34,709 nucleotides of DNA from a virus, in IMG/VR virus record IMGVR_UViG_3300030104_000102, positions 1 through 34,709 of that record; one strand, 5' to 3'. Positions 1,425 through 29,943 of this stretch are shown here, piece after piece (position 1 is the stretch's first letter; each line of letters opens with the position of its first letter). A model generated the notes under the pieces. The model worked only from the letters and a program-made list of their open reading frames with translations. It was not told where the DNA came from and made no database searches. The translations under genes were made by a program, and so were the position numbers.

Positions 1425-1716
1425 GTTTTGTTTTTATTAACCTTACCCCTTCTGATTCTAACCAATTACGCATAGCTTGATTTACAGCCCACGATCCTTG
1501 ATCCCTAAAAACTTCTTTCATCTTTTTATGTGCGGTGTTGTAAGATTTCAAACCCTTGTAGTAATTACCATCTCCCAGTGTAGAATATCGTACAATCTGC
1601 CATACTCTTTGTTTAGATATGTTGTACTTTAGTCCTATGTCTTCTAACGTTGTGTGACTGTTTATATAAGTCATATAAATATTAAAGTATAGATCTTTTA
1701 GCTCAGCTTTCTTCAT
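1417..1716 (-). CDS. small helix-turn-helix protein (sigma-70 region-4-like)
   Basis: I choose the ATG at 1714-1716 (MKKAELKDLYF, 99 residues), which has AAGGA about 8 nt upstream, rather than a longer in-frame start at 1761 that would run deeper into the polymerase gene. Residues about 22-44 (TLEDIGLKYNISKQRVWQIV) form a helix-turn-helix like that of sigma-70 region 4 or Trp-repressor-like DNA-binding domains. The rest is basic and helical. It overlaps the end of the polymerase gene by 14 nt and the nuclease by 8 nt. A small DNA-binding regulator or replication accessory protein is plausible; nothing shows a target site. Confidence 0.6.
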   Translation of the reverse strand: MKKAELKDLYFNIYMTYINSHTTLEDIGLKYNISKQRVWQIVRYSTLGDGNYYKGLKSYNTAHKKMKEVFRDQGSWAVNQAMRNWLESEGVRLIKTKHG

Positions 1717-3595
1717 TGAAATATTCCTTATAGTCTGTAACGTTACCCCAACTTGGACCAATCTCTGCGTCTACTTTATTAGGTACTTTTAGTTCTACAC
1801 AGTCTCTCATTATATCTACGACCTTCTCACATTCTTTTTTATCGGTTACAGATATATTAAGTTCATCATGTACTTGTGTATGAGCTAATAACCCTTCTTT
1901 ATATAAATCGAGCATAGCTTGCTTAGTCATATCTGCAGCTGAGCCTTGTATCAAACGGTTCATAGCTTTATAGGTATAGGCTCGCTTTAGCCTACCGCCA
2001 TACTCATCCATAGCCTTATCAAAAGGTAGTGGTAATTCTCTTCTATCGTGTGGTTCATATAAATTAAACCTACACTTACGACCCAATATAGTTTTGACAT
2101 AACCTCTGTTAGCTCCCTGACGAGCAGCAGAGTCACGCAAGCCACGGACAAAGGGCACTCGTTCATGATACTGATCAAACAGTGTCTCAGCTTCTTCATT
2201 ACTGATACCAAGCTGACTCGTTAACTTATCCTTACCCATACCGTAACTTAATCCTAGATTAATTATCTTAGCTTCCTTACGGCTTATGTTAGCCATATCT
2301 GCTACTATTTGATGAAAGTCAGCGTCATCATCGTGATAGTCGTTTGCTGCTTCTTCCGCACCATCCTGTTGCGTTATCAAAGAATAATGTACTGTAAGTC
2401 TAGGCTCTTGCTGAGAGTAATCAAAACATCCCCAGTGTTTTCCTTCCTCTGGTATAAATAATGAACGTATTAGATTACCTATCATAGGATCTCTAGCTGG
2501 CACTTGTTGTAAGTTTGGATTACTACAACTAAACCTTCCCGTAACCGTGCCTCCGCTATCTGATCTGAGTGGGTGTAGCTCACCGTGTATCCTACCGTCA
2601 ACTAAATGACCTAATATCATTTTATCTATAAACGTAGTACGAGCCTTATTTAGTTTTCTAGCCTGAGCGATAGCCATAGGTAATTTATGATCATGAGCCT
2701 CTAGCCAGTTAGCTACAAAACTTGGTGCTTGAGTTTTAGGGGTTTTAGGATAATCTAGCCCTGCCCTATCAAACACTTGTGCTAATGACTGTGCTGCCCA
2801 TAAGTCTGGTTCTATACCATACCAACCCTTAACCTCTTTGATTATTTTATCTTCGTCTTGCTTTAATTGTTTCTTTACCTGCTGTGCTTTATCAATATCT
2901 ATCCGCACACCCTTCATCCTCATGTCTATAAGCACAGGTAATAATCCACGCTCTAAGTTATAAATATCAGTTATGTTTTCCTCACTGATACCTCTTTTTA
3001 ATATCTGCCATAGCCTGTATGTAAGGTCGGCATCTTGCTCAGCATACATACCTACATACTCTGGTGCTAATTTATACATTTCAGATTTAGCATCAACACC
3101 GAATATCTGTGCAGCTTCTGTGAGCATAGTTTCATCTTTTATTTCACCGAGATACATTTTACCTAAACTGTTAAGTGAGTAACTGTACTCATTTTCATTT
3201 AGTAACGGAGCAGCCATCATAGTATCGTGTACCTCACCGTTGATTCTATAACCTTCTGCTTTGAGCCAACCTACATCGTACTGAGCGTTATGAAATATTT
3301 TAGAGTTAGGAGCGTCTAACTGTTTCTGTAACCACTTACGAACCACATTTTTATCTAAGTTTGCACCGTTACTATGAGCCACAGGAAAGTATCCTTTCCA
3401 ACCCTCAGTAGCTATAGCTATACCTATAATGTGTCCTCTATCTCTACCAGCCCACCCTGGACCATGTGTAGTAAGCCACGGATCACAAGTTTCTAAGTCT
3501 ATGGCTATCTCTTTCTGGTTTGTTAAATCAGGGAAAGAAGTGGGTGGTCGCCAATCTGTTTCTGGCTTTAAAAAATCCATTATCATTTGTGTCAT
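1703..3595 (-). CDS. polA: DNA polymerase I, family A, with 3'-5' exonuclease
   Basis: Replicative polymerase of T7 gp5/PolA type, 630 residues, without the 5' nuclease domain. The proofreading domain is intact: Exo I IDLET (Asp33, Glu35), Exo II FHNAQYD (Asp107), Exo III YAEQD (Tyr184, Asp188). Polymerase motifs follow: TGRFSCSNPNLQQVPARD (about 352-369), motif A DYSQQEPR (Asp392), motif B RKEAKIINLGLSYGMG (Arg439, Lys443, Tyr451) and motif C QVHDE (Asp577, Glu578). At the site equivalent to E. coli Phe762 this enzyme has Leu447. In marine phage surveys Leu at this site has been linked with slower replication and possibly temperate lifestyles. The start could be any of three close Met codons (residues 1, 4, 6). 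A stop 1 nt before the ThyA-like gene's stop region keeps it in one operon. No thioredoxin-binding loop was looked for beyond these motifs. Confidence 0.97.
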   Translation of the reverse strand: MTQMIMDFLKPETDWRPPTSFPDLTNQKEIAIDLETCDPWLTTHGPGWAGRDRGHIIGIAIATEGWKGYFPVAHSNGANLDKNVVRKWLQKQLDAPNSKIFHNAQYDVGWLKAEGYRINGEVHDTMMAAPLLNENEYSYSLNSLGKMYLGEIKDETMLTEAAQIFGVDAKSEMYKLAPEYVGMYAEQDADLTYRLWQILKRGISEENITDIYNLERGLLPVLIDMRMKGVRIDIDKAQQVKKQLKQDEDKIIKEVKGWYGIEPDLWAAQSLAQVFDRAGLDYPKTPKTQAPSFVANWLEAHDHKLPMAIAQARKLNKARTTFIDKMILGHLVDGRIHGELHPLRSDSGGTVTGRFSCSNPNLQQVPARDPMIGNLIRSLFIPEEGKHWGCFDYSQQEPRLTVHYSLITQQDGAEEAANDYHDDDADFHQIVADMANISRKEAKIINLGLSYGMGKDKLTSQLGISNEEAETLFDQYHERVPFVRGLRDSAARQGANRGYVKTILGRKCRFNLYEPHDRRELPLPFDKAMDEYGGRLKRAYTYKAMNRLIQGSAADMTKQAMLDLYKEGLLAHTQVHDELNISVTDKKECEKVVDIMRDCVELKVPNKVDAEIGPSWGNVTDYKEYFNEES

Positions 3596-3596
3596 T

Positions 3597-4604
3597 TTAT
3601 ACCCTTCTATCTAGCCACTCAAAACATGCCCTACGCCAATCTGTAGCAGCACAGCTTTGTATTTCTATTATAGCTTCTTCCGTTTTACCTAGCCTGTGTA
3701 ACCAGAAAGCATCTTGCATTGGCACAGCTACCTCTGTAAAAAACCTATCATTAAACTTGACGTCTTCAAAAGGTACTCTATCTAGAAAGTTGACTAAATC
3801 AATGTCCCATAACTCTGGGCTTACATTTATCAAAGGGTACGGTGAGACCTCTCCTGTTACATATGGATTATTTTTCATAGCAGTCCTTTGCGTATAAAAA
3901 TCTAGAGCGTCTCTACTAATTAATTGGTCTAATAATTTTTTAAATAAATCTTCATACGCATGAAAGTTATCACTAATCTGATAATATCTACCCACAGGAA
4001 TACCTATGTTAGCTGCCATGTATTCATGTAGCATAGACATATGCACTGCGTTAGCACCGTAAGCTCCCCATATAATATCGTTTGACCTATTACTGACTGT
4101 CATCTGTAGACACCCTGTAGTGTCTTCTTTAAAATATATAGAGGTATTACAAGGCACATCTTTGCCGTCTCTACCTAAGTCATTATAAGCGTCCCACATC
4201 TGTAAAACAGAACGTCTATCTTCTCCGTCTTTCTTTAATCTTTCTATGATGACCTTTAGTTGATCAAAACCGAAGTAGTACCGCCATCTCCAACCGTATG
4301 CCCCCCAAAGTATTTTACCATCATCACTGTAGTTCTCCATATTTTTAGCGTAGTATTTTACAAACTCTAAATCATTACGACCATCAAGCATCCATAAACT
4401 CTCCATAAAATGGAAAAATGGATTAGCGTCACGTTCCTCCCAGAATAAAACCCTTTCTTTAGGTCTTTCATAAACTGTGGTTACAGGAGTTCTAGCTTGA
4501 TAAACTCTACCGTTTCTACTTTCATTTCTAAAATCTTCTGTATGTAATAAATCCATACCACGTACTAAAGCATCGTGTACGTTTCTTACCTCAAGAACCT
4601 GCAT
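3597..4604 (-). CDS. thymidylate synthase-superfamily enzyme (ThyA or dUMP/dCMP hydroxymethylase)
   Basis: 335 residues with the ThyA fold signatures: phosphate-binding EDRRSVLQMWDA (Arg130, Arg131), catalytic cysteine in VPCNTSIYF (Cys152), NRSNDIIWGAYGANAVHMS (Arg173, Ser174, Asp176) and SDNFHAY (His215, Tyr217), matching the H-x-Y nucleotide contact of ThyA. ThyA converts dUMP to dTMP; close phage relatives instead make 5-hydroxymethyl-dUMP or -dCMP. The base-discriminating Asn of E. coli ThyA (Asn177) falls near Ala184/Asn185 depending on a one-residue gap, so the product cannot be settled here. The C-terminus lacks the typical ThyA ending. The next-door dUTPase supplies dUMP, and the adjoining glycosyltransferase and HMUDK_hel protein make a hydroxymethylase role attractive. 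It overlaps the glycosyltransferase by 14 nt. Confidence 0.85.
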   Translation of the reverse strand: MQVLEVRNVHDALVRGMDLLHTEDFRNESRNGRVYQARTPVTTVYERPKERVLFWEERDANPFFHFMESLWMLDGRNDLEFVKYYAKNMENYSDDGKILWGAYGWRWRYYFGFDQLKVIIERLKKDGEDRRSVLQMWDAYNDLGRDGKDVPCNTSIYFKEDTTGCLQMTVSNRSNDIIWGAYGANAVHMSMLHEYMAANIGIPVGRYYQISDNFHAYEDLFKKLLDQLISRDALDFYTQRTAMKNNPYVTGEVSPYPLINVSPELWDIDLVNFLDRVPFEDVKFNDRFFTEVAVPMQDAFWLHRLGKTEEAIIEIQSCAATDWRRACFEWLDRRV

Positions 4605-5376
4605 TTTCTACTCCTTCTTTATATGCTTTTTTCCAACCTATGATTACATCTTTACGTGGTAAACCATTCCATGCAGTTTTAGTTTGCTTTTCTACTACTT
4701 TTACGCAGGTGGGGTGAAGGTCATGTAGCCTTTGAGCCCCCTCATTATGTACGTCAATAGTTCTCCACTCACTACAGCCACCGTCAGCGTTAGAAGACTT
4801 TTGACCTTGAGCATAATAAAAACTTACTTTACATGCTTTACCCCTTCTAAGTAATTGTAAGGCTATATCAAAATCCTCCATGACTCTAGTTCTGCCCCAC
4901 TCAACATCACTAGGAAACTCTTCTAAGTTATACCCTAGAACTCTCATGTACCTTGTATTTTCTACTGATAAACTTTCTACCCTATTATTACCCTCTCTGG
5001 CACTTACACCCACATGAGCATAACCTTGATCCATCCATTCATCAAGTAATCCAAATAAAGCAGGATACTCTTCTGATTCAAGATACCTAAGATGCCAGTC
5101 AGTTGGACTTTTACGAATATAAAAACGTAAGTCATCGTCTAACATAATTATACGTGGGTCGTCTGTATTTTCTACTATGTATTTACGCTTTGGACCTATA
5201 CCGATACAGTCCTCAGGCACTACCATCTTAGCTGTATCTGGGTATTTATCATATTGATCTTTTTCGTCTTCGTCTATAACTAAGACTACCTGACCATTAG
5301 TTTGCATATCTTTAGGAAACCATTTAAGTGTTTCTTGGTTTTTAGGTCTGCCTCTTGTTGGTATATATATTTTCAT
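4591..5376 (-). CDS. glycosyltransferase, TET-associated (TAGT)-like, GT-A fold
   Basis: 261 residues opening with MKIYIPTRGRPKNQETLKWF, then VVPEDCIGIGPKRKYIVENT and a metal-binding acidic triplet in RIIMLDDDLRF (Asp80-82). A second acidic motif, RVMEDFDIALQLLRRG (Glu167, Asp168), is where GT-A enzymes place their catalytic acid. This arrangement matches the TET/JBP-associated glycosyltransferases that Iyer and Aravind predicted to glycosylate hydroxymethylated bases in phage DNA. It lies between the ThyA-like enzyme (14-nt overlap) and the dUTPase (4-nt ATGA overlap), as expected for an enzyme that decorates a modified pyrimidine. No signal peptide or membrane segment is seen, so it acts in the cytoplasm. 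The sugar donor and exact base are unknown. A generic family-2 glycosyltransferase acting on another substrate is the alternative. Confidence 0.75.
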   Translation of the reverse strand: MKIYIPTRGRPKNQETLKWFPKDMQTNGQVVLVIDEDEKDQYDKYPDTAKMVVPEDCIGIGPKRKYIVENTDDPRIIMLDDDLRFYIRKSPTDWHLRYLESEEYPALFGLLDEWMDQGYAHVGVSAREGNNRVESLSVENTRYMRVLGYNLEEFPSDVEWGRTRVMEDFDIALQLLRRGKACKVSFYYAQGQKSSNADGGCSEWRTIDVHNEGAQRLHDLHPTCVKVVEKQTKTAWNGLPRKDVIIGWKKAYKEGVENAGS

Positions 5377-5831
5377 TTTGTACCTGTACTCCCGAACCCA
5401 CCTATACTGCGCATAGTGATACCACTAAAATCTAACACAGGTTGCCACATTACCTGAACCACAGGCACTATAACTAACTGAGCTATCCTCTGTCCTTTTT
5501 CAATAAGCATGCCTGTCTCCCCGTTATTAGTTAGTGGAACCATTAACTCACCTTGATAGTCTGCATCAATAATTCCTAAAGTATTGGTTAAGTGTATCTT
5601 TTTAATACCTAGACTAGAACGAGGCACAAGCAAGCCACAAAGCTCAAAGTCTCCTAAGTACATAGCTAACCCTGTGCGGTATGTATGAGACTCTCCTGGA
5701 GTTAACTCATAGTCTTCTGCTGACCGTAAGTCTAAACCAGCTGAGCCTACAGTGGCATACTCGGGGAGTATGTGTGGGTCAGTATGGTCAAATAAACTTG
5801 GGTCTATTATTTTAATCTCTACTTTCTTCAT
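5373..5831 (-). CDS. dut: dUTP diphosphatase (dUTPase)
   Basis: All five motifs of the trimeric dUTPase family are present in 152 residues: I SAGLDLRS (Asp34), II PRSSLGIK (71-73), III GIIDADYQGEL (Asp89, Tyr92), IV KGQRIAQLV, and V GGFGSTG (144-150), whose C-terminal Phe arm closes over the nucleotide. It hydrolyses dUTP to dUMP and pyrophosphate, keeping uracil out of DNA and feeding dUMP to the ThyA-like enzyme two genes downstream. Length is normal for the family. The gene starts inside the end of the preceding small helical gene (20-nt overlap) and its stop overlaps the glycosyltransferase start, so it is part of the nucleotide/modification operon. Confidence 0.96.
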   Translation of the reverse strand: MKKVEIKIIDPSLFDHTDPHILPEYATVGSAGLDLRSAEDYELTPGESHTYRTGLAMYLGDFELCGLLVPRSSLGIKKIHLTNTLGIIDADYQGELMVPLTNNGETGMLIEKGQRIAQLVIVPVVQVMWQPVLDFSGITMRSIGGFGSTGTK

Positions 5832-6141
5832 AGTTATCCTCTCTTTTTTCTTTAGTTATAAATCTTGATGTATAATCCTCTACTAATATTAAGTATCTCC
5901 TTAAATCACGTATGTCGTCTAATATGCCTGTATCTGTAGGATCTTTAGCTATAGCTGAAAATATATCGTAGCCTTCTTTATGGGTTTGATTCTCTATCCT
6001 ATCCCATTTACGTGCTAACATCATAAAAGCTCCCACGCCTCCACGCTTACGCCAACTATCTCCGTAGCTTTTTTCAGCTTCTACTAGCTCACGCACGTCG
6101 TCCTCAACTAAGTTAAATAAATCTCTTGAGTCTACAGCCAT
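5812..6141 (-). CDS. small helical protein, possibly Nmad1/DUF1599-like
   Basis: 109 residues, predicted mostly helical and highly charged. The block SYGDSWRKRGGVGAFMMLAR followed by KWDRIENQ and DIRDLRRYLILVE resembles the YG-x-SW ... K-x-x-RI pattern of DUF1599, a family named nucleotide-modification-associated domain 1 in Pfam (from memory). Such proteins recall all-alpha NTP pyrophosphohydrolases. It overlaps the HMUDK_hel gene by 10 nt and the dUTPase by 20 nt. That company supports a role in handling modified nucleotides, for example housecleaning of dNTPs, but this is inference from context and a short motif. Confidence 0.55.
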   Translation of the reverse strand: MAVDSRDLFNLVEDDVRELVEAEKSYGDSWRKRGGVGAFMMLARKWDRIENQTHKEGYDIFSAIAKDPTDTGILDDIRDLRRYLILVEDYTSRFITKEKREDNYEESRD

Positions 6142-6974
6142 TTAGTTTCTCCTGTATATTTAAATTTTGCTCTAGGTCTGCCTTCTCCTAAACGCACCCT
6201 TTCATATTTATCGTACTCACATAGGCAGTGCTCTATCTCCCTCATCTCTAATGTAGGTAAAAAACTTCCTGCATATATACTAGCGTGATCTAATAACTCC
6301 CTCATCTCTGTCGTTAGTTGGTCTGGTTTTATAGTTTGCTCTAGTGGTCTACCGTGTATTCTATTTAAGCCACGTTTAGCTCCTGGACCAGCATTAGCCC
6401 AAGTCATAATATCATCAGCGTTTTCTAAATATTTACTGTGTCGTAGGTCAGTTACTACCTCATAAGCCATAAAGCCACTAAATCCAGGATATGGTAAATA
6501 CTTTTTCCAAGTCTCCTCAAGTGAGTACGGTAATATCTGAGGAGGTGATTCATATAGTGGGGTAAGTATTTTATCTATAGTTTGTTCAACCTTTGTACCA
6601 CCTAACGTGCCTGTCAACATATAAGCACCTGTGTACACTTTTTCTTTTCTATCTAACCTACCTTGCATGATAGCTTTTACACGTTCAGGGTTCCAGTGCT
6701 CAGGAAAACCTATCTCTTGTAAAGTATCTGGCCAGTTTATTTGACGAGCCACAGCCATAGCGAAAGGTAAATTAGGGTGGTCAGCATAAGGCTCTTTCCA
6801 GTTCTCACGTATCCATACAGTAACCTTATCTAACTCACGATAAACATTACAGAAACTATAGGTCTGTAATATCTCATCCTCTGTCCACGGAAAGGCTTCT
6901 CCTATACTACGTTTTAAATAGATAGCATGCCTTTCATTAATATAGTTATAAAAACCGTCTACACTTGAAACCAT
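6132..6974 (-). CDS. HMUDK_hel-family protein (5-hmdU / thymine hypermodification-associated)
   Basis: 280 residues with a pattern I recognise from the family named '5-hmdU DNA kinase, helical domain': FYNYINERHAIYLKR, PWTEDEILQTYSFCNVYREL (29-48), LPFAMAVARQINWPDTL, LPYPGFSGFMAYEVVTDLR, GPGAKRGLNRIHGRP (196-210) and IEHCLCEYDKYERVRLGEG (247-265). Iyer and colleagues placed it with the alpha-glutamyl/putrescinyl-thymine pyrophosphorylase group, helical DNA-glycosylase-like proteins predicted to act on 5-hydroxymethyluracil in DNA. No P-loop kinase is fused to it and none is visible in the window, so this is a stand-alone helical domain. It overlaps the small helical gene by 10 nt and the next gene by 16 nt. 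Family call is fairly firm; the reaction is not. Confidence 0.75.
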   Translation of the reverse strand: MVSSVDGFYNYINERHAIYLKRSIGEAFPWTEDEILQTYSFCNVYRELDKVTVWIRENWKEPYADHPNLPFAMAVARQINWPDTLQEIGFPEHWNPERVKAIMQGRLDRKEKVYTGAYMLTGTLGGTKVEQTIDKILTPLYESPPQILPYSLEETWKKYLPYPGFSGFMAYEVVTDLRHSKYLENADDIMTWANAGPGAKRGLNRIHGRPLEQTIKPDQLTTEMRELLDHASIYAGSFLPTLEMREIEHCLCEYDKYERVRLGEGRPRAKFKYTGETKWL

Positions 6975-7426
6975 TCTGGTACCTCACGTTTAGTCCACTT
7001 AGCAAAGCCACTTTTCTCCCCTATATAGTAATTACGATAAGCAGATATAGGATCACTCAATACTTTATACTCATCAGGCATACACTGTGGATGTTGTTGC
7101 AAGCCTTTACTTTTTATGAGTGGAGGAAATAATTCATTAATGACTTCTATTGATTTATGACTAGCTGACCTACCGTACCGCCAGCAAAACTCCTCATTTA
7201 AATAAATAGCTAATTCTTTTAACCAAAGCCAATTATCAAGACTCTCCCCAGCCCATATAGTACAAGGGTGTTTAGCGTGTACAGGCTTATAAGGAGCGTT
7301 TTGACCGTTAGTCCAAAGGCTTGTACAAAGCATTTGAGCTGACTCTAATATCATTTTAGATACATGCTTATCACAGTGCGTTTGAGCACAAAGTTGAGGA
7401 GTCGTATCTAATTTAAATATATTCAC
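6959..7426 (-). CDS. conserved phage protein, His/Cys/Trp-rich (CDKHV motif), unknown function
   Basis: 155 residues starting at a GTG codon with no clear Shine-Dalgarno. Likely conserved blocks are CDKHVSKMILESAQMLC (18-34), KHPCTIWAGES..NWLWL (52-69) and PQCMPDEYK...AYRNYYIGEK (113-138), with several Cys, His and Trp residues that could bind metal or form an active site. I have a memory of similar proteins in marine and cyanophage genomes without assigned function. It overlaps the HMUDK_hel gene by 16 nt and follows the AlkB gene after 58 nt, so it belongs to the proposed base-modification cassette. No function is claimed. Confidence 0.75.
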   Translation of the reverse strand: MNIFKLDTTPQLCAQTHCDKHVSKMILESAQMLCTSLWTNGQNAPYKPVHAKHPCTIWAGESLDNWLWLKELAIYLNEEFCWRYGRSASHKSIEVINELFPPLIKSKGLQQHPQCMPDEYKVLSDPISAYRNYYIGEKSGFAKWTKREVPEWFQV

Positions 7427-7439
7427 GTTATTTATTTTA

Positions 7440-7453
7440 CTTTACAAGTAAAG
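7440..7453. promoter_or_regulatory. palindrome CTTTAC-AA-GTAAAG in an intergenic gap
   Basis: A perfect 6+6 inverted repeat with a 2-nt centre lies in the 58-nt gap between AlkB and the GTG start of the CDKHV gene. It is too tight to be a hairpin and too weak for a terminator, so an operator-type protein site is the better reading. This is one of few real gaps in the left operon. AT-rich sequence on either side could house a promoter, but no clear -35/-10 pair is seen. Confidence 0.35.
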
Positions 7454-7484
7454 GGAAAGTATAGGATTATTCATAAAATTTATA

Positions 7485-8063
7485 TCAAATACCTGTCCTA
7501 AAAGTTAAATTTATTCTTTCACCAGCTTCTTGTGAGGGCAGTATAGCATGGGTACTACTCATCTGTGATTCTCCATCAAATATATACACATCACCATCAT
7601 TAAGTAAGTATGTTTTTTGTAGTGACCACTCTTCGTTTATATTCACTTCGCTTGTGTTAGTGTGTTCTTTTATATCGTATCTATATTGATTCCACTCCAT
7701 GTATCTTGGGGCACCGTAAGAAACACCTAATACTAAATCTTTTTTCGTAGGCACAGTATCTGAGTGATGCGGTATTGATACACTACCGTCTTTATAAAGT
7801 CCACAGAGGCAAAAATTAAACTTAATAACCTGATCTAACTGTTTAAAAACTATAAACTCTGCTGCCTGTTTTAAAATTTCCATAGACAAAGTCCATGGTT
7901 CAGGTTTGTACGTTTTGCCTGCATACTCAAAGCATTTGGTGCCATAAGCTTTTGTAGGTCTACCCACTACTTTTTTACCGTTGAAGTTTCTTATAACAGG
8001 ATCATCCCACTCATCTATACTTGGGTCATATTCTGTTAATGCTTGTTTTATAATCTTTATCAT
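7485..8063 (-). CDS. AlkB-like 2-oxoglutarate/Fe(II) dioxygenase
   Basis: 192 residues with the AlkB iron and oxoglutarate residues: FNFCLCGLYKDG (Tyr90), HHSD giving His100 and Asp102, STHAILP giving His172, and GERINLTFRTGI with Arg183 and Arg189. The R-x-N-L-T-F-R spacing equals that of E. coli AlkB Arg204/Arg210. AlkB enzymes oxidatively remove N-alkyl groups from DNA or RNA bases; some viral ones repair alkylated nucleic acid. Because it heads a run of base-modifying genes, oxidation of a phage-specific base is a second possibility. Its ATG overlaps the UvrD-like stop (ATGA). Iron-dependent chemistry is well supported; the substrate is not. Confidence 0.88.
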   Translation of the reverse strand: MIKIIKQALTEYDPSIDEWDDPVIRNFNGKKVVGRPTKAYGTKCFEYAGKTYKPEPWTLSMEILKQAAEFIVFKQLDQVIKFNFCLCGLYKDGSVSIPHHSDTVPTKKDLVLGVSYGAPRYMEWNQYRYDIKEHTNTSEVNINEEWSLQKTYLLNDGDVYIFDGESQMSSTHAILPSQEAGERINLTFRTGI

Positions 8064-26628: not shown

Positions 26629-27750
26629 CTAACTACCTTGCTTAATTGTAATTGTATTAGATGAACCACCGTTTACTTTTATAACATTTTCTACACCATC
26701 TTGTAAAAGAACTAATGTGTAGGAACTAGATCCATCTAAATCTAATCGAAGTGATTGACCTACCGTTCTACGGACACTTATAAGCTGACCTGTTATTATA
26801 GTGGTTATCTGTGTATCTTTATCTTGACCTATATCTGTACCCGCTATAGTGATTCCTGTGGCAAGTTTGCTTAATTGATCCTCTTCTTCTTCGATGGCTA
26901 AAGCATCGATTATATTGAGTAAGTCTTCTAAAAAATTAACATCTAAGTAGTTTATATCGAGCTCTGTAAATTCTAGTTCTGATTCATTATTTAGAAAATC
27001 CTCAGCTAAAAAATCTATATCTAAATCATTAAAGTCTAAATAATCTGCTGTAGTTTGTTGTTGGTTACTTTCTTGTAAATCTTCTTTAATCTTTGGAGGA
27101 TTAACTATTAACATATTATCGATTAGTTCTAATGTTATGTCTAAAATAACAGGTTTAGTTGGTGCTTGTTCATATACTGTTGCTACAGTAGATTGATAAG
27201 GTTTATTAAGAACAACCATTCCCATGGCAGTTTCTACTGTTATTTCACCACTAGATATACCGTTCTCGTCTGGGAGCAATATGACAAGAGATCTACCCAG
27301 CTCGTCCACAGTGATTGTAAAATCCGTTCCCCTTATACCGATAGTTGCACTGTTTGTTCTTATTTTTATATTTTTCTTTTTTACTTTGTTTAATTTACCA
27401 GTAACAAATCTTGCAGTGCCTTTAGCAAAAGTTAAAGCCATTTTAGATTTATCAGGGTTAGGATCAAATACAAACTCATCTATTAACACTCTAGAGTTTT
27501 CTGTTAATCGTATCTGTGTCTCATCTATAAACGTAATACCCATACGTCCGTTAGCAGTTTCTACTTTGTCGTAACTAAGTATGCCGAAGTCTATTTCAGC
27601 ACCATATGGTTTATCCCTTACTACTTGGGCATTACCTCTCAGCTCACTTATAGAGCCTATATCAACAGCCTGTGCTTGTGCCTTGGTCGTTTTGAATAAC
27701 ACACACAGTTGAAGTGCTAGTGCCAGAACTAATAATCTTGAGCCAATCAT
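26629..27750 (-). CDS. secreted FecR-domain protein with curlin-like C-terminus
   Basis: 373 residues. A Sec signal peptide (MIGSRLLVLALALQLCVLF, cut near Ala28), then a FecR domain (about 30-160: SISELRGNAQV, TNSATIGIRGTDF, a hallmark motif of FecR-type periplasmic domains). Residues 236-280 are acidic with repeated LDxxFL/LDINYLDVNFL units. The last 35 residues contain LLQDGVENV (Gln350-x4-Asn355) and SSNTITIKQGS (Asn365-x5-Gln371), spacing used in curlin repeats. It follows the curlin-like gene and its signal peptide is coded in an 89-nt overlap with that gene. No Shine-Dalgarno is seen. A scaffold, nucleator or envelope anchor for the curli-like system is inferred; FecR is normally a signal transducer, but no sigma factor is here. 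Confidence 0.7.
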   Translation of the reverse strand: MIGSRLLVLALALQLCVLFKTTKAQAQAVDIGSISELRGNAQVVRDKPYGAEIDFGILSYDKVETANGRMGITFIDETQIRLTENSRVLIDEFVFDPNPDKSKMALTFAKGTARFVTGKLNKVKKKNIKIRTNSATIGIRGTDFTITVDELGRSLVILLPDENGISSGEITVETAMGMVVLNKPYQSTVATVYEQAPTKPVILDITLELIDNMLIVNPPKIKEDLQESNQQQTTADYLDFNDLDIDFLAEDFLNNESELEFTELDINYLDVNFLEDLLNIIDALAIEEEEDQLSKLATGITIAGTDIGQDKDTQITTIITGQLISVRRTVGQSLRLDLDGSSSYTLVLLQDGVENVIKVNGGSSNTITIKQGS

Positions 27751-28375
27751 TGTCTAAAGTGCTTTGTTGTTGAATATTGAATGTTCTATTGCTGCCTGTA
27801 TGGTCTAACCAAAAGTAACCACCAGCATAACCATCTCCATCATAAGTTACAGTATTATCAGAACCGTCTATATCCATATAATTAGTAGCACTATCTATAT
27901 CTATAGCTGATGTAATACTATTACTAGAACCATTAATTATCCAATCTAAGTCTAGTGTACTAGCTAAAGCAGTGGTGGCTTGATTTAAGGTAAAAGTGTT
28001 ACTATTGCCAGTAACGTCAACATTCACATTAGACGAGTCAGCACCGTATGTGTTTGTCTTATCTGTGTTCATGTTAAAAGTATTGCTGTTACCATCAAAC
28101 TCAAAAAAGCCAGTGTACGAATCTGAGACTATGTCGCCTAAGAATTTATTTGTGTCACCGATCTGATTTATGTCTAATGTTAACCCTGTACCGATTAAAT
28201 TTAAATCTGTCATAGTGCCTGCTACTGCATCAGCACCCCCTATAATATTGCCAGAACCAAGTTGTTCTAAATCTATGTTTGAATTAGAAGCACCTGAACT
28301 TTGATCAATAAAGATTTCATTATCTGCTGCATAAATCGGTAAACAGATAATAAATAAAAATAGATATTTTCTCAT
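27662..28375 (-). CDS. secreted curlin-like (CsgA/CsgB-type) protein
   Basis: 237 residues from the ATG at 28373-28375, preceded by a perfect GGAGG; a longer frame opens at a TTG that lies within the preceding gene. A short signal peptide (MRKYLFLFIICLPIYA) should be cut after Ala16 or 17. The mature part is rich in Asn, Ser, Thr, Gly and Asp. It has the curlin hallmark Q-x-G-x-x-N twice (QLGSGN 38-43; QIGDTN 71-76) and repeats of G-N-S-N-T-F strands about every 20-25 residues (95-100, 123-128, 149-153, 171-175, 194-199), predicting a beta-solenoid amyloid-type fold. It ends TVCVIQNDQGTSTGC. It is the likely export substrate of the CsgG/CsgF pair. The repeats are more diverged than in E. coli CsgA. 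Confidence 0.7.
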   Translation of the reverse strand: MRKYLFLFIICLPIYAADNEIFIDQSSGASNSNIDLEQLGSGNIIGGADAVAGTMTDLNLIGTGLTLDINQIGDTNKFLGDIVSDSYTGFFEFDGNSNTFNMNTDKTNTYGADSSNVNVDVTGNSNTFTLNQATTALASTLDLDWIINGSSNSITSAIDIDSATNYMDIDGSDNTVTYDGDGYAGGYFWLDHTGSNRTFNIQQQSTLDNDWLKIISSGTSTSTVCVIQNDQGTSTGC

Positions 28376-29172
28376 TGTTTTAACCTCCAATATTCTTTAT
28401 CTACACCTTCCCGTATAGTTTCTAAAACTGCTGTTTCTATAGCTATCTGTAGAGCTACGCTCATCGGTTCGTTTCTTACGTTTCCGCCCTCCACTTCTAT
28501 GAGCTCTGTTCCTTGACTTACAAACCTAAAAACATCACTATCTAAAGAAGCTGATAAAACAGTTTTAGTTACTAACACTTCTGTTAAAACTCTTCCTGTA
28601 CTTACAGAAACAGTTCTTAAACTTATTGTAATTATATCCTCTCTGTATTGTTTGGAAAAACCTATACCCAAGTTTCTAGCCCCTGCTCCACCTGAGCCAA
28701 TGTTAGCTTGATAAGATAAAACACCCCCTGTCATAATCATGTCACCAAATTTAAGGGGTAAAAGCTTTTGATCTTCATCAAATGTTTCTCTCGTTGACCT
28801 TATTAGTTGTCGTTCTTTTGTTACTGACTCTAATGATACTCTTTCTACAACTTCAAAAAAGTTTGAGTGTTTTAATGCTCTAATTAAATATGCATGAGGT
28901 GCTTGCGTTATCGCTGTAGCAAAAGTTGCATATTTAGCATTAGATCTACGTTGTCCAGTTTGATCTTTAAAATCATTAGCATAAACTGATATGACAGGTT
29001 TCCTTGCTGGTTCTTCTACATTAGCTAAATCTGTGTATAGTTTTTCTACCGAAGCTGGTTGAATGTACTTTATTGGTGGTATATTGTTTTCTAGTGGATC
29101 AATCATGAGAGCACAACTAGAAAGTAAAACCACCGATAGGCACGATAACTTCTGTAATGTTGCCTTCTTCAT
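28372..29172 (-). CDS. csgG: CsgG, outer-membrane curli secretion pore lipoprotein
   Basis: 266 residues (E. coli CsgG 277). Lipoprotein signal with lipobox LSSC (Cys20). Strong blocks shared with E. coli CsgG: ISVYANDFKDQTGQ (61-74), IGSGGAGARNLGIGFSKQY (158-176), VSVSTGRVL, VFRFV (214-218) and NEPMSVALQIAIETAV (234-249). CsgG assembles as a 9-subunit, 36-strand beta-barrel through which curlin subunits cross the outer membrane. At the constriction loop the E. coli Tyr51/Asn55/Phe56 line up with a region YATF (81-84): the Phe is kept, Asn becomes Thr, and Tyr is shifted or lost. It overlaps CsgF by 56 nt and the curlin gene by 4 nt (ATGA). A GAGGAGG site lies about 18 nt upstream, unusually far. 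Confidence 0.93.
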   Translation of the reverse strand: MKKATLQKLSCLSVVLLSSCALMIDPLENNIPPIKYIQPASVEKLYTDLANVEEPARKPVISVYANDFKDQTGQRRSNAKYATFATAITQAPHAYLIRALKHSNFFEVVERVSLESVTKERQLIRSTRETFDEDQKLLPLKFGDMIMTGGVLSYQANIGSGGAGARNLGIGFSKQYREDIITISLRTVSVSTGRVLTEVLVTKTVLSASLDSDVFRFVSQGTELIEVEGGNVRNEPMSVALQIAIETAVLETIREGVDKEYWRLKQ

Positions 29173-29593
29173 CAGTGATAGTAACTTTAACCTCCTCGTC
29201 TGTTATTTCATATTCTATGGTGTTACCGTCCAGTTCCATAGAACCGCTCTTTTGTTGGTCTTCACCGAACAAAGCTGACTCTACTTGTCTAGCTATGTTT
29301 GCATAGATTCTAGAAGTAAGATTGCGCATAAAACGAGCTTCTACAGTATTATTTTCTTCTCTTTCTATTTGGTCTTGTAATGCTTCTATTTCTTCTTTCA
29401 AAGCCTTTTTACGATTAGTCTCTTGATTTTCTATAGTTAAGTAGTGACTAGACGTACCTATACCGCTAAAAGACGGATTTTTAAATTCATGCACCATCTC
29501 GTCTGATTGTATGTGGTTTGTGAACAAAACTAATGCAGTCACTATGAGCATAGAAGAAATAAGCAGAAGTTCATTAGGTGTTTTAGGATCCAT
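29117..29593 (-). CDS. csgF: CsgF-like curli assembly factor
   Basis: 158 residues from the ATG at 29591-29593 with AGAGGA 7 nt upstream (a TTG one codon earlier is rejected). An N-terminal hydrophobic segment (about 9-26) serves as signal or anchor. Then VHEFKNPSFSGIGTSSHYL (34-52) matches the CsgF mature N-terminus, FQFRNPNFGG in E. coli, which plugs into the CsgG barrel to form a second constriction. LTSRIYANIARQVES (92-106) and IEYEITDEEVKVTITDEEG (126-144) match its helix and beta C-terminal parts. A charged coiled coil (61-82) replaces the usual linker. CsgF couples CsgG to the curlin nucleator at the cell surface. The 56-nt overlap with csgG suggests strict co-expression. Stop/start overlap TGATG with the upstream holin-like gene. 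Confidence 0.85.
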   Translation of the reverse strand: MDPKTPNELLLISSMLIVTALVLFTNHIQSDEMVHEFKNPSFSGIGTSSHYLTIENQETNRKKALKEEIEALQDQIEREENNTVEARFMRNLTSRIYANIARQVESALFGEDQQKSGSMELDGNTIEYEITDEEVKVTITDEEGNITEVIVPIGGFTF

Positions 29594-29943
29594 CAATCTT
29601 TCCTCTGATCGTCACGATCAGCTTTGGCTATTTTATTACTATCTATTAACTGTGGTACACCTAAGATAGTTTTGATAAGAGTATCTTGACGTATGATTTC
29701 ATTATCTAAAGATCTAACTCTGTCTATAAGAGCTACTAATATACCGTGTTGTGAATCTAATTTTGTACCAAGCCTTTGTTCCATCTGTTCTATTTGATCA
29801 GCAACTTTATCATCTAGCACATCTACTTTAGTTTCCATGCCATCTATAATTCTATTTATAAGTTTCCATATAAAGAAACCTAACCCTAGTGCTGCTGCGA
29901 TTGGAAAGCCTACCTCGTTAATAAAGGTGACTGCTTGATCCAT
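29593..29943 (-). CDS. small membrane/coiled-coil protein, holin-like (BhlA type?)
   Basis: 116 residues: an N-terminal hydrophobic helix (about 8-30: EVGFPIAAALGLGFFIWKLI), then a long charged coiled coil (LDDKVADQIEQMEQRL, ALIDRVRSLDNEIIRQD). One membrane helix plus a coiled coil is the layout of BhlA/UviB-type phage holins. It is the gene immediately before csgF, so a membrane protein of the lysis or export module is likely. It might alternatively be a spanin-like inner component, but no lipoprotein partner is visible except CsgG. Start and stop both overlap neighbours (TAATG, TGATG). Confidence 0.6.
   Translation of the reverse strand: MDQAVTFINEVGFPIAAALGLGFFIWKLINRIIDGMETKVDVLDDKVADQIEQMEQRLGTKLDSQHGILVALIDRVRSLDNEIIRQDTLIKTILGVPQLIDSNKIAKADRDDQRKD

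Follow-up and report, generated by a model that had tools for sequence, protein, structure and literature searches.

A phage gene cassette predicted to glycosylate 5-hydroxymethyl-deoxyuridine, with a glycosyltransferase gene and no recognized 5-hmdU DNA kinase gene

The DNA analyzed here is the IMG/VR virus record IMGVR_UViG_3300030104_000102 (34,709 bases, hereafter the window), which is classed as linear in that database and is possibly a fragment. Between positions 3597 and 8063 the window carries seven genes on the minus strand, overlapping or nearly so (Table 1), which an initial annotation had taken for a probable DNA base-hypermodification cassette. All seven open reading frames (ORFs) are present, and Pfam matches above the curated cut-offs uphold the labels given to the ThyA-superfamily enzyme, the TAGT family glycosyltransferase, the dUTPase, HMUDK_hel and the AlkB-like dioxygenase; HMUDK_hel scored 159.5 bits (PF18723 cut-off 25) and TAGT 88.5 bits (PF20691 cut-off 27.5). 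We consider it likely that this cassette makes glycosylated 5-hydroxymethyl-deoxyuridine (5-hmdU) in the phage DNA, HMUDK_hel presenting the base and TAGT glycosylating it, which would yield a nucleotide similar to base J.

Table 1. Genes of the cassette and the adjoining polymerase gene in the window
Gene product	Position	Strand	Match or remark
ThyA-superfamily enzyme	3597..4604	-	PF00303 1.4e-18; PHROG 5131 6e-124
TAGT family GT-A glycosyltransferase	4591..5376	-	PF20691 7.6e-25
dUTPase	5373..5831	-	PF00692 1.1e-29
p109, 109-aa conserved helical protein	5812..6141	-	without credible Pfam family
HMUDK_hel	6132..6974	-	PF18723 1.5e-46
CDKHV protein	6959..7426	-	PHROG 624 'DNA binding protein' 1.7e-51
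AlkB-like 2-oxoglutarate (2OG)-Fe(II) dioxygenase	7485..8063	-	PF13532 3.3e-16
Family A DNA polymerase (PolA)	1703..3595	-	directly downstream of cassette

When the ThyA protein of the window was aligned to E. coli ThyA, the catalytic Cys146 and Asn177 were kept, a gap was observed at Trp80, and two substitutions, L143D and H147N, were present. It is known that the loss of Trp80 favours hydroxymethylation. Variants at Trp83 apart, the same residue pattern is found in CampHawk (SPO1-like), ST-W77 (ViI-like), M6 and LuckyBarnes; furthermore, Cys146, Asn177, the absence of Trp80, L143D and H147N were shared by 142/142 full-length homologues from the locus surveys described below. The best relatives of solved structure are CMP 5-hydroxymethylases (82 bits), and the best thymidylate synthase reached 43 bits. 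From its sequence, the enzyme is predicted to be a dUMP 5-hydroxymethylase that makes 5-hmdUMP. A plain thymidylate synthase that raises the dTMP supply, with HMUDK_hel as a relic, would fit the superfamily membership and the fact that phage thymidylate synthases are common, but it is very improbable in view of the missing Trp80, the L143D and H147N changes, the fact that every thymidylate synthase structure is more distant than CMP hydroxymethylase, and an HMUDK_hel that is intact and highly conserved.

Asn177 selects dUMP and Asp177 selects dCMP, and contigs with modified cytosine mostly have Asp at this position (PMC8670742, excerpt). The glycosylated hydroxymethyl pyrimidine proposed initially remains the best reading, and Asn177 would narrow it to uracil rather than cytosine. 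Hydroxymethylcytosine (hmC), as in T-even phages, is suggested by TAGT, which is best known from hmC phages, and by the authors of the LuckyBarnes genome, who predicted a dCMP-hydroxymethylase (PMC6588365, excerpt). However, both the Asp of the modified-cytosine contigs and the Asn177 of every survey homologue, as well as of LuckyBarnes gp41, speak against it, and we hardly credit this possibility.

TAGT is the predicted 5-hmdU DNA glycosyltransferase of the cassette. The window protein carries the invariant D80 D81 D82, a DDD metal motif observed in 86/86 family members, and the gene lies between HMUDK_hel and ThyA in 81/84 of the TAGT loci surveyed. It shares the PF20691 family and the GT-A type DDD motif with the TAGT of T6-type phages; in contrast, it is only about 27-28% identical to T4-like members, and its cassette has a uracil, not a cytosine, hydroxymethylase. 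When the Manatee Spring TAGT was used to scan viral sequences, no relatives turned up. Regarding the sugar, FkbM-type methyltransferases were observed near HMUDK_hel in 17 loci, 14 of them with a glycosyltransferase, which is a hint of methylated sugars in some loci. In addition, cupin and cytidylyltransferase-like genes occur inside or beside glycosyltransferase-type cassettes (L014:10794-11147, L090, L182:11073-11498), and they possibly make the sugar donor.

It had also been remarked that neither a P-loop hmdU kinase nor a TET/JBP gene was visible, and neither PF18748 nor TET/JBP was found in the window. The kinase and transferase search set comprised 30 IMG/VR records (the window and 29 relatives, four of these records being 48-65 kb long), with phage M6 as control. 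The 5-hmdU DNA kinase (PF18748) and the amino-acid:DNA transferase (PF18724) were each found in 0/30 records and were detected in M6, in agreement with the kinase-free variant of the pathway that had been supposed. The TET/JBP family (PF12851) gave no match above the cut-off in 32 records, and a TET/JBP route to the modified base was rejected on these grounds; one sub-cut-off match (11.8 bits, in the record of L003) overlaps an AlkB-like ORF by coordinates.

The thymidine hypermodification of M6 is established (PMC6449724, excerpt). Its gene order is amino-acid:DNA transferase, pyridoxal phosphate (PLP) enzyme, 'photolyase', PF18748 kinase, HMUDK_hel, Nmad5, thymidylate synthase and YfbR-like nucleotidase, and the gene annotated as 'photolyase' is a radical S-adenosylmethionine (SAM) enzyme in the SN1 paper (PMC9476957). 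Like the window, Pseudomonas phages M6/YuA have a dUMP hydroxymethylase-like thymidylate synthase and HMUDK_hel next to PolA. Unlike the window, M6 has the PF18748 kinase, the PF18724 transferase, the radical SAM-type gene and the PLP enzyme, while the window has TAGT instead; PF20691 found no match in M6.

To describe the cassette in related phages, each viral scan retained the best 80 of 552, 563, 561 and 563 confirmed stretches, and the survey is a sample of what lies nearest to the four query proteins. In the 80 viral loci nearest by HMUDK_hel, the trio of HMUDK_hel, ThyA and TAGT was present in 80/80, and the grouping is therefore not due to chance. The other genes were p109 in 79 loci, a PD-(D/E)XK exonuclease (about 226 aa, encoded between ThyA and PolA or close to them) in 78, CDKHV in 67, AlkB in 29, YfbR in 18 and dUTPase in 17. 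Thus AlkB, CDKHV and dUTPase, initially counted among the parts of the pathway, do not hold as core parts; AlkB and CDKHV are treated as accessories because they vary independently. In the scan seeded with TAGT, 13/80 loci were dropped as duplicate DNA, leaving 67 distinct ones. HMUDK_hel was present in 50/50 of those with at least 2.5 kb upstream, and ThyA in 66/66 of those with at least 1.2 kb downstream; the five TAGT-seeded loci without HMUDK_hel had less than 0.7 kb upstream. The kinase was found in 0/67.

A wider set of 332 HMUDK_hel loci was reduced to 167 distinct ones by removing those with identical C-terminal 150 residues. Their neighbours were clustered and then searched with cluster-built hidden Markov models (HMMs), the kinase and other HMMs coming partly from survey proteins. 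By transferase, the loci were divided into TAGT (84), kinase (26), the glycosyltransferase clusters labelled GT20 (25), GT24 (14) and GT33 (7), sulfotransferase (1) and none recognized (10); non-TAGT glycosyltransferases account for 46/167. No locus had more than one kind (0/167), and the kinase never occurred together with any glycosyltransferase (0/167; Fisher p 4e-22, uncorrected for kinship). The amino-acid:DNA transferase was present in 19/167 loci, all with the kinase. As with TAGT, the other glycosyltransferases mostly lie between HMUDK_hel and ThyA (GT20 in 22/25, GT24 in 12/14 and GT33 in 7/7 loci). In a FastTree phylogeny of HMUDK_hel, which left out one short sequence, the transferase switches from one kind to another 18 times, five of these between glycosyltransferase and kinase; therefore, the pattern is not the product of one ancestral event.

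GT20 narrowly misses the cut-off for Glycos_transf_1 (1.3e-5), and profile comparison links GT24 to GT20 (probability 95, E 2e-8). GT33, for which such comparison gave no link, is called from a sub-cut-off Glyco_trans_1_2 match in 2/7 members, and PDB profile searches with GT24 and GT33 returned nothing. The single sulfotransferase locus (L029:596-5167) has HMUDK_hel, ThyA, YfbR and p109 beside a PIG-L deacetylase, an adenylylsulfate (APS) kinase and a sulfotransferase-like protein (PF13469 4.3e-5, below the cut-off), a gene set suggesting a sulfated 5-hmdU.

These associations bear on the possibility that 5-hmdU is itself the final base, or that TAGT acts elsewhere, for example on a surface glycan, and is a mere neighbour. 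Glycosyltransferases are indeed common in phages, and plain 5-hmU is the base listed for SPO1-type phages (PMC5977210, excerpt). Nevertheless, TAGT is tied to HMUDK_hel in all the testable TAGT-seeded loci, and other kinds of glycosyltransferase can take its place between HMUDK_hel and ThyA, never two at once, so that we judge this explanation improbable.

Glycosyltransferase-type loci misfit a role of HMUDK_hel confined to the kinase, as its Pfam name suggests. Its AF2 model (pLDDT 93) has as best structural match the PaMx11 5-PmdU glycinyltransferase 8z2n (Z 12.0, 216 residues, 3.6 A); the next matches are almost all helix-hairpin-helix (HhH) DNA glycosylases, with Z 8.0-10.6 in the top rows and human DUF2419 (Z 9.9) as an exception. 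That other families did not appear in this comparison was not taken as evidence. A sequence search for solved relatives gave nothing useful. Within the family, 48 residues are conserved in both kinase- and glycosyltransferase-partnered members and none is specific to the glycosyltransferase kind. At position 200, which was assigned to the hairpin by eye and would correspond to the catalytic lysine that follows the hairpin in HhH-GPD DNA glycosylases, Lys was found in 76/131 glycosyltransferase-type members and Leu or Ile in 20/26 of the kinase type. We infer, with the help of this model, that HMUDK_hel may bind 5-hmdU in DNA, with the base probably flipped out, and make the hydroxyl accessible to the transferase of the given locus. 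A catalytic HMUDK_hel, being itself a transferase or kinase-like while the glycosyltransferase and the kinase act before or after it, would account for its invariant charged residues (R15, D33, R46, E47, D49, D176, R201, R205, E253, K256) and for the amino-acid:DNA transferase as nearest fold. However, those residues are common to kinase and glycosyltransferase contexts, which suits the binding of a shared substrate better than one chemistry, and visual inspection of the family alignment showed no P-loop; we regard a catalytic role as unlikely. In many glycosyltransferase-type loci (L030 type), the gene immediately upstream of HMUDK_hel, in the spot where M6 has its kinase, encodes a conserved protein of some 205 aa (cluster 13) that matches no Pfam family.

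Independent cases were also observed. In the cultured Brevibacterium phage LuckyBarnes, an actinobacteriophage, thymidylate synthase (gp41, with Asn at 177), TAGT (gp40 and gp39) and HMUDK_hel (gp38) lie in a row, and PF18748 had no match in the complete genome. Eight relatives of p109 were taken from contigs of bacterial or archaeal metagenome-assembled genomes, and HMUDK_hel was present in 7/8 of these genomes. Near p109 the contigs carried TAGT (2), GT20 (2, one weak), the kinase with the amino-acid:DNA transferase (1) or no recognized transferase (3), never two kinds; gene orders included HMUDK_hel-TAGT-ThyA (L347), HMUDK_hel-FkbM-TAGT-ThyA (L348) and HMUDK_hel-p109-GT20-ThyA (L346). A separate observation concerns Microbacterium phage Bustleton (L343, 1962-5354), which has a very distant HMUDK_hel homologue (22%) and a thymidylate synthase with Asp at 177, as expected for cytosine; PF18748 and PF20691 found no match in it.

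Regarding the supporting genes, the dUTPase is optional and alternates in relatives with a YfbR-like 5'-deoxynucleotidase: among the 84 TAGT loci, 13 had dUTPase, 36 YfbR, 35 neither and none both. The small protein p109 had been labelled DUF1599-like. That identity was rejected, since a PF07659 search of the window stayed empty up to E 10 and no credible Pfam family was found across 11 members; all the same, p109 belongs to a real, highly conserved family with 20 invariant columns in 60 sequences. It is predicted to be all-helical (AF2 pLDDT 89), and its best Foldseek rows are of MazG/DCTPP1 types, though weak (E at least 1.6), as are the Z scores of about 5.3-6.5 to named pyrophosphatases. 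From these models, p109 is possibly an all-alpha NTP pyrophosphatase that trims competing nucleotides. In Pam3, a phage of the kinase type, p109 lies between YfbR and the polymerase region, and because of this position a role in nucleotide pool control is preferred over one in the transfer step. The CDKHV protein matched PF03013 (Pyr_excise) at 0.033, below the cut-off.

Several points weigh against the proposed glycosylation of 5-hmdU. The window is possibly a fragment, and a kinase elsewhere is possible for this phage taken alone. The T6-type TAGT puts the second sugar on glucosyl-hmC (PMC13216743, excerpt), and to propose a first transfer, onto 5-hmdU, is to extrapolate from that activity; the T4 alpha- and beta-glucosyltransferases were not found in 12 records, in searches without a positive control. 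Ten of the 167 HMUDK_hel loci had no recognized transferase, including 5 of the 130 in which each flank spans at least 2.5 kb, and GT24 and GT33 have no significant Pfam match of their own. The Z scores of the HMUDK_hel model are under the tool's safe level for helical models, in which a common arrangement can reach such values, and its best Foldseek E was 0.44. Finally, we found in the literature no nucleoside measurement on these phages or their marine relatives.

Taking both sides together, glycosylated 5-hmdU is the product that we favour, and we infer the enzymatic activities, the identity of the sugar and the base presentation by HMUDK_hel as follows. The dUTPase would yield dUMP and keep dUTP from the DNA, and the ThyA paralogue would convert dUMP to 5-hmdUMP. 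This would be phosphorylated to 5-hmdUTP and inserted by the phage polymerase instead of thymidine. The pool of competing dTTP is probably kept small by p109, in relatives also by YfbR. HMUDK_hel, with its glycosylase-like and possibly base-flipping fold, would then bind the incorporated 5-hmdU and present the hydroxyl, onto which TAGT would move a sugar. In M6-type phages, HMUDK_hel would work with the P-loop kinase instead, and the amino-acid:DNA transferase would follow. Base J of kinetoplastids is likewise a sugar on 5-hydroxymethyluracil, made via oxidation of T in DNA by TET/JBP enzymes; the predicted product of the window differs in that it would derive from dUMP by a ThyA paralogue.

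The source lineage can be approached from the rest of the window. Its polymerase is nearest, in a phage collection, to those of 023Pt_psg01, DSL-LC04, HTVC027P and HTVC023P (49-51% identity), and curli/type VIII secretion genes are present at 26629-29596 (FecR PF04773 1.2e-12, CsgG PF03783 1.2e-47, CsgF PF10614 1.4e-19), a module known from the HTVC023P-type lineage (PMC9599517, excerpt). Because of the polymerase neighbours and the curli genes, the sequence points to a piece of a phage of the HTVC023P-type pelagiphage lineage. The curli region also includes a curlin-like ORF (27662-28390) without clear Pfam match, and the primase ORF at 9553-11070 matches the AEP-TOTE domain (PF22548 7.1e-11). 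ThyA and PolA abut directly at 3595-3597, and the exonuclease and YfbR genes of the relatives had no credible match anywhere in the window. At the DNA level, a search of public phages for relatives of the cassette gave two short matches only.

The gene set itself was already in print in 2022. Wittmers et al. described a thymidylate synthase with aG/PT-PPlase1 in HTVC023P clades V, VIII and IX, sometimes also with a beta-glucosyl-HMC-alpha-glucosyltransferase and a 5'-deoxynucleotidase (PMC9599517, excerpt). The equation of aG/PT-PPlase1 with PF18723 rests on how matching phage proteins are annotated, M6-like genes bearing the names 'aGPT-Pplase1' and '5-hmdU DNA kinase helical domain'. As in the window, the thymidylate synthase and aG/PT-PPlase1 of that cluster lie near PolA in a lineage with curli genes; the accessible text of that paper does not mention the missing kinase or the pattern of one transferase per locus and proposes no pathway. 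What is new here is the pathway logic and the exchange of kinase for glycosyltransferase, of which we found no statement in the literature within a limited coverage of the papers on thymidine hypermodification.

In a broader proposal, to which we give no more weight for than against, HMUDK_hel would be a general module for reading 5-hmdU with exchangeable transferases: the M6-type kinase, in ocean phages glycosyltransferases of two or three unrelated lineages (TAGT, GT20/GT24 and GT33) and, on one contig, a sulfotransferase. SAR11-type phages would then have sugar-5-hmdU resembling base J, in some cases with a methylated sugar, and one lineage would have sulfated 5-hmdU. If this is true, a domain filed as part of the 5-hmdU DNA kinase would become a common platform for DNA hypermodification, and the prediction could be checked directly in the cultured phage LuckyBarnes. 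It might also explain part of the genomes with a solitary TAGT, which are 288 of 753 phage genomes (PMC13216743, excerpt). The DNA of the window phage is probably chemically armoured against its host, and glycosylated thymine analogues would be predicted in the HTVC023P-type phages, which have been described as abundant and widespread in the ocean (PMC9599517, excerpt).

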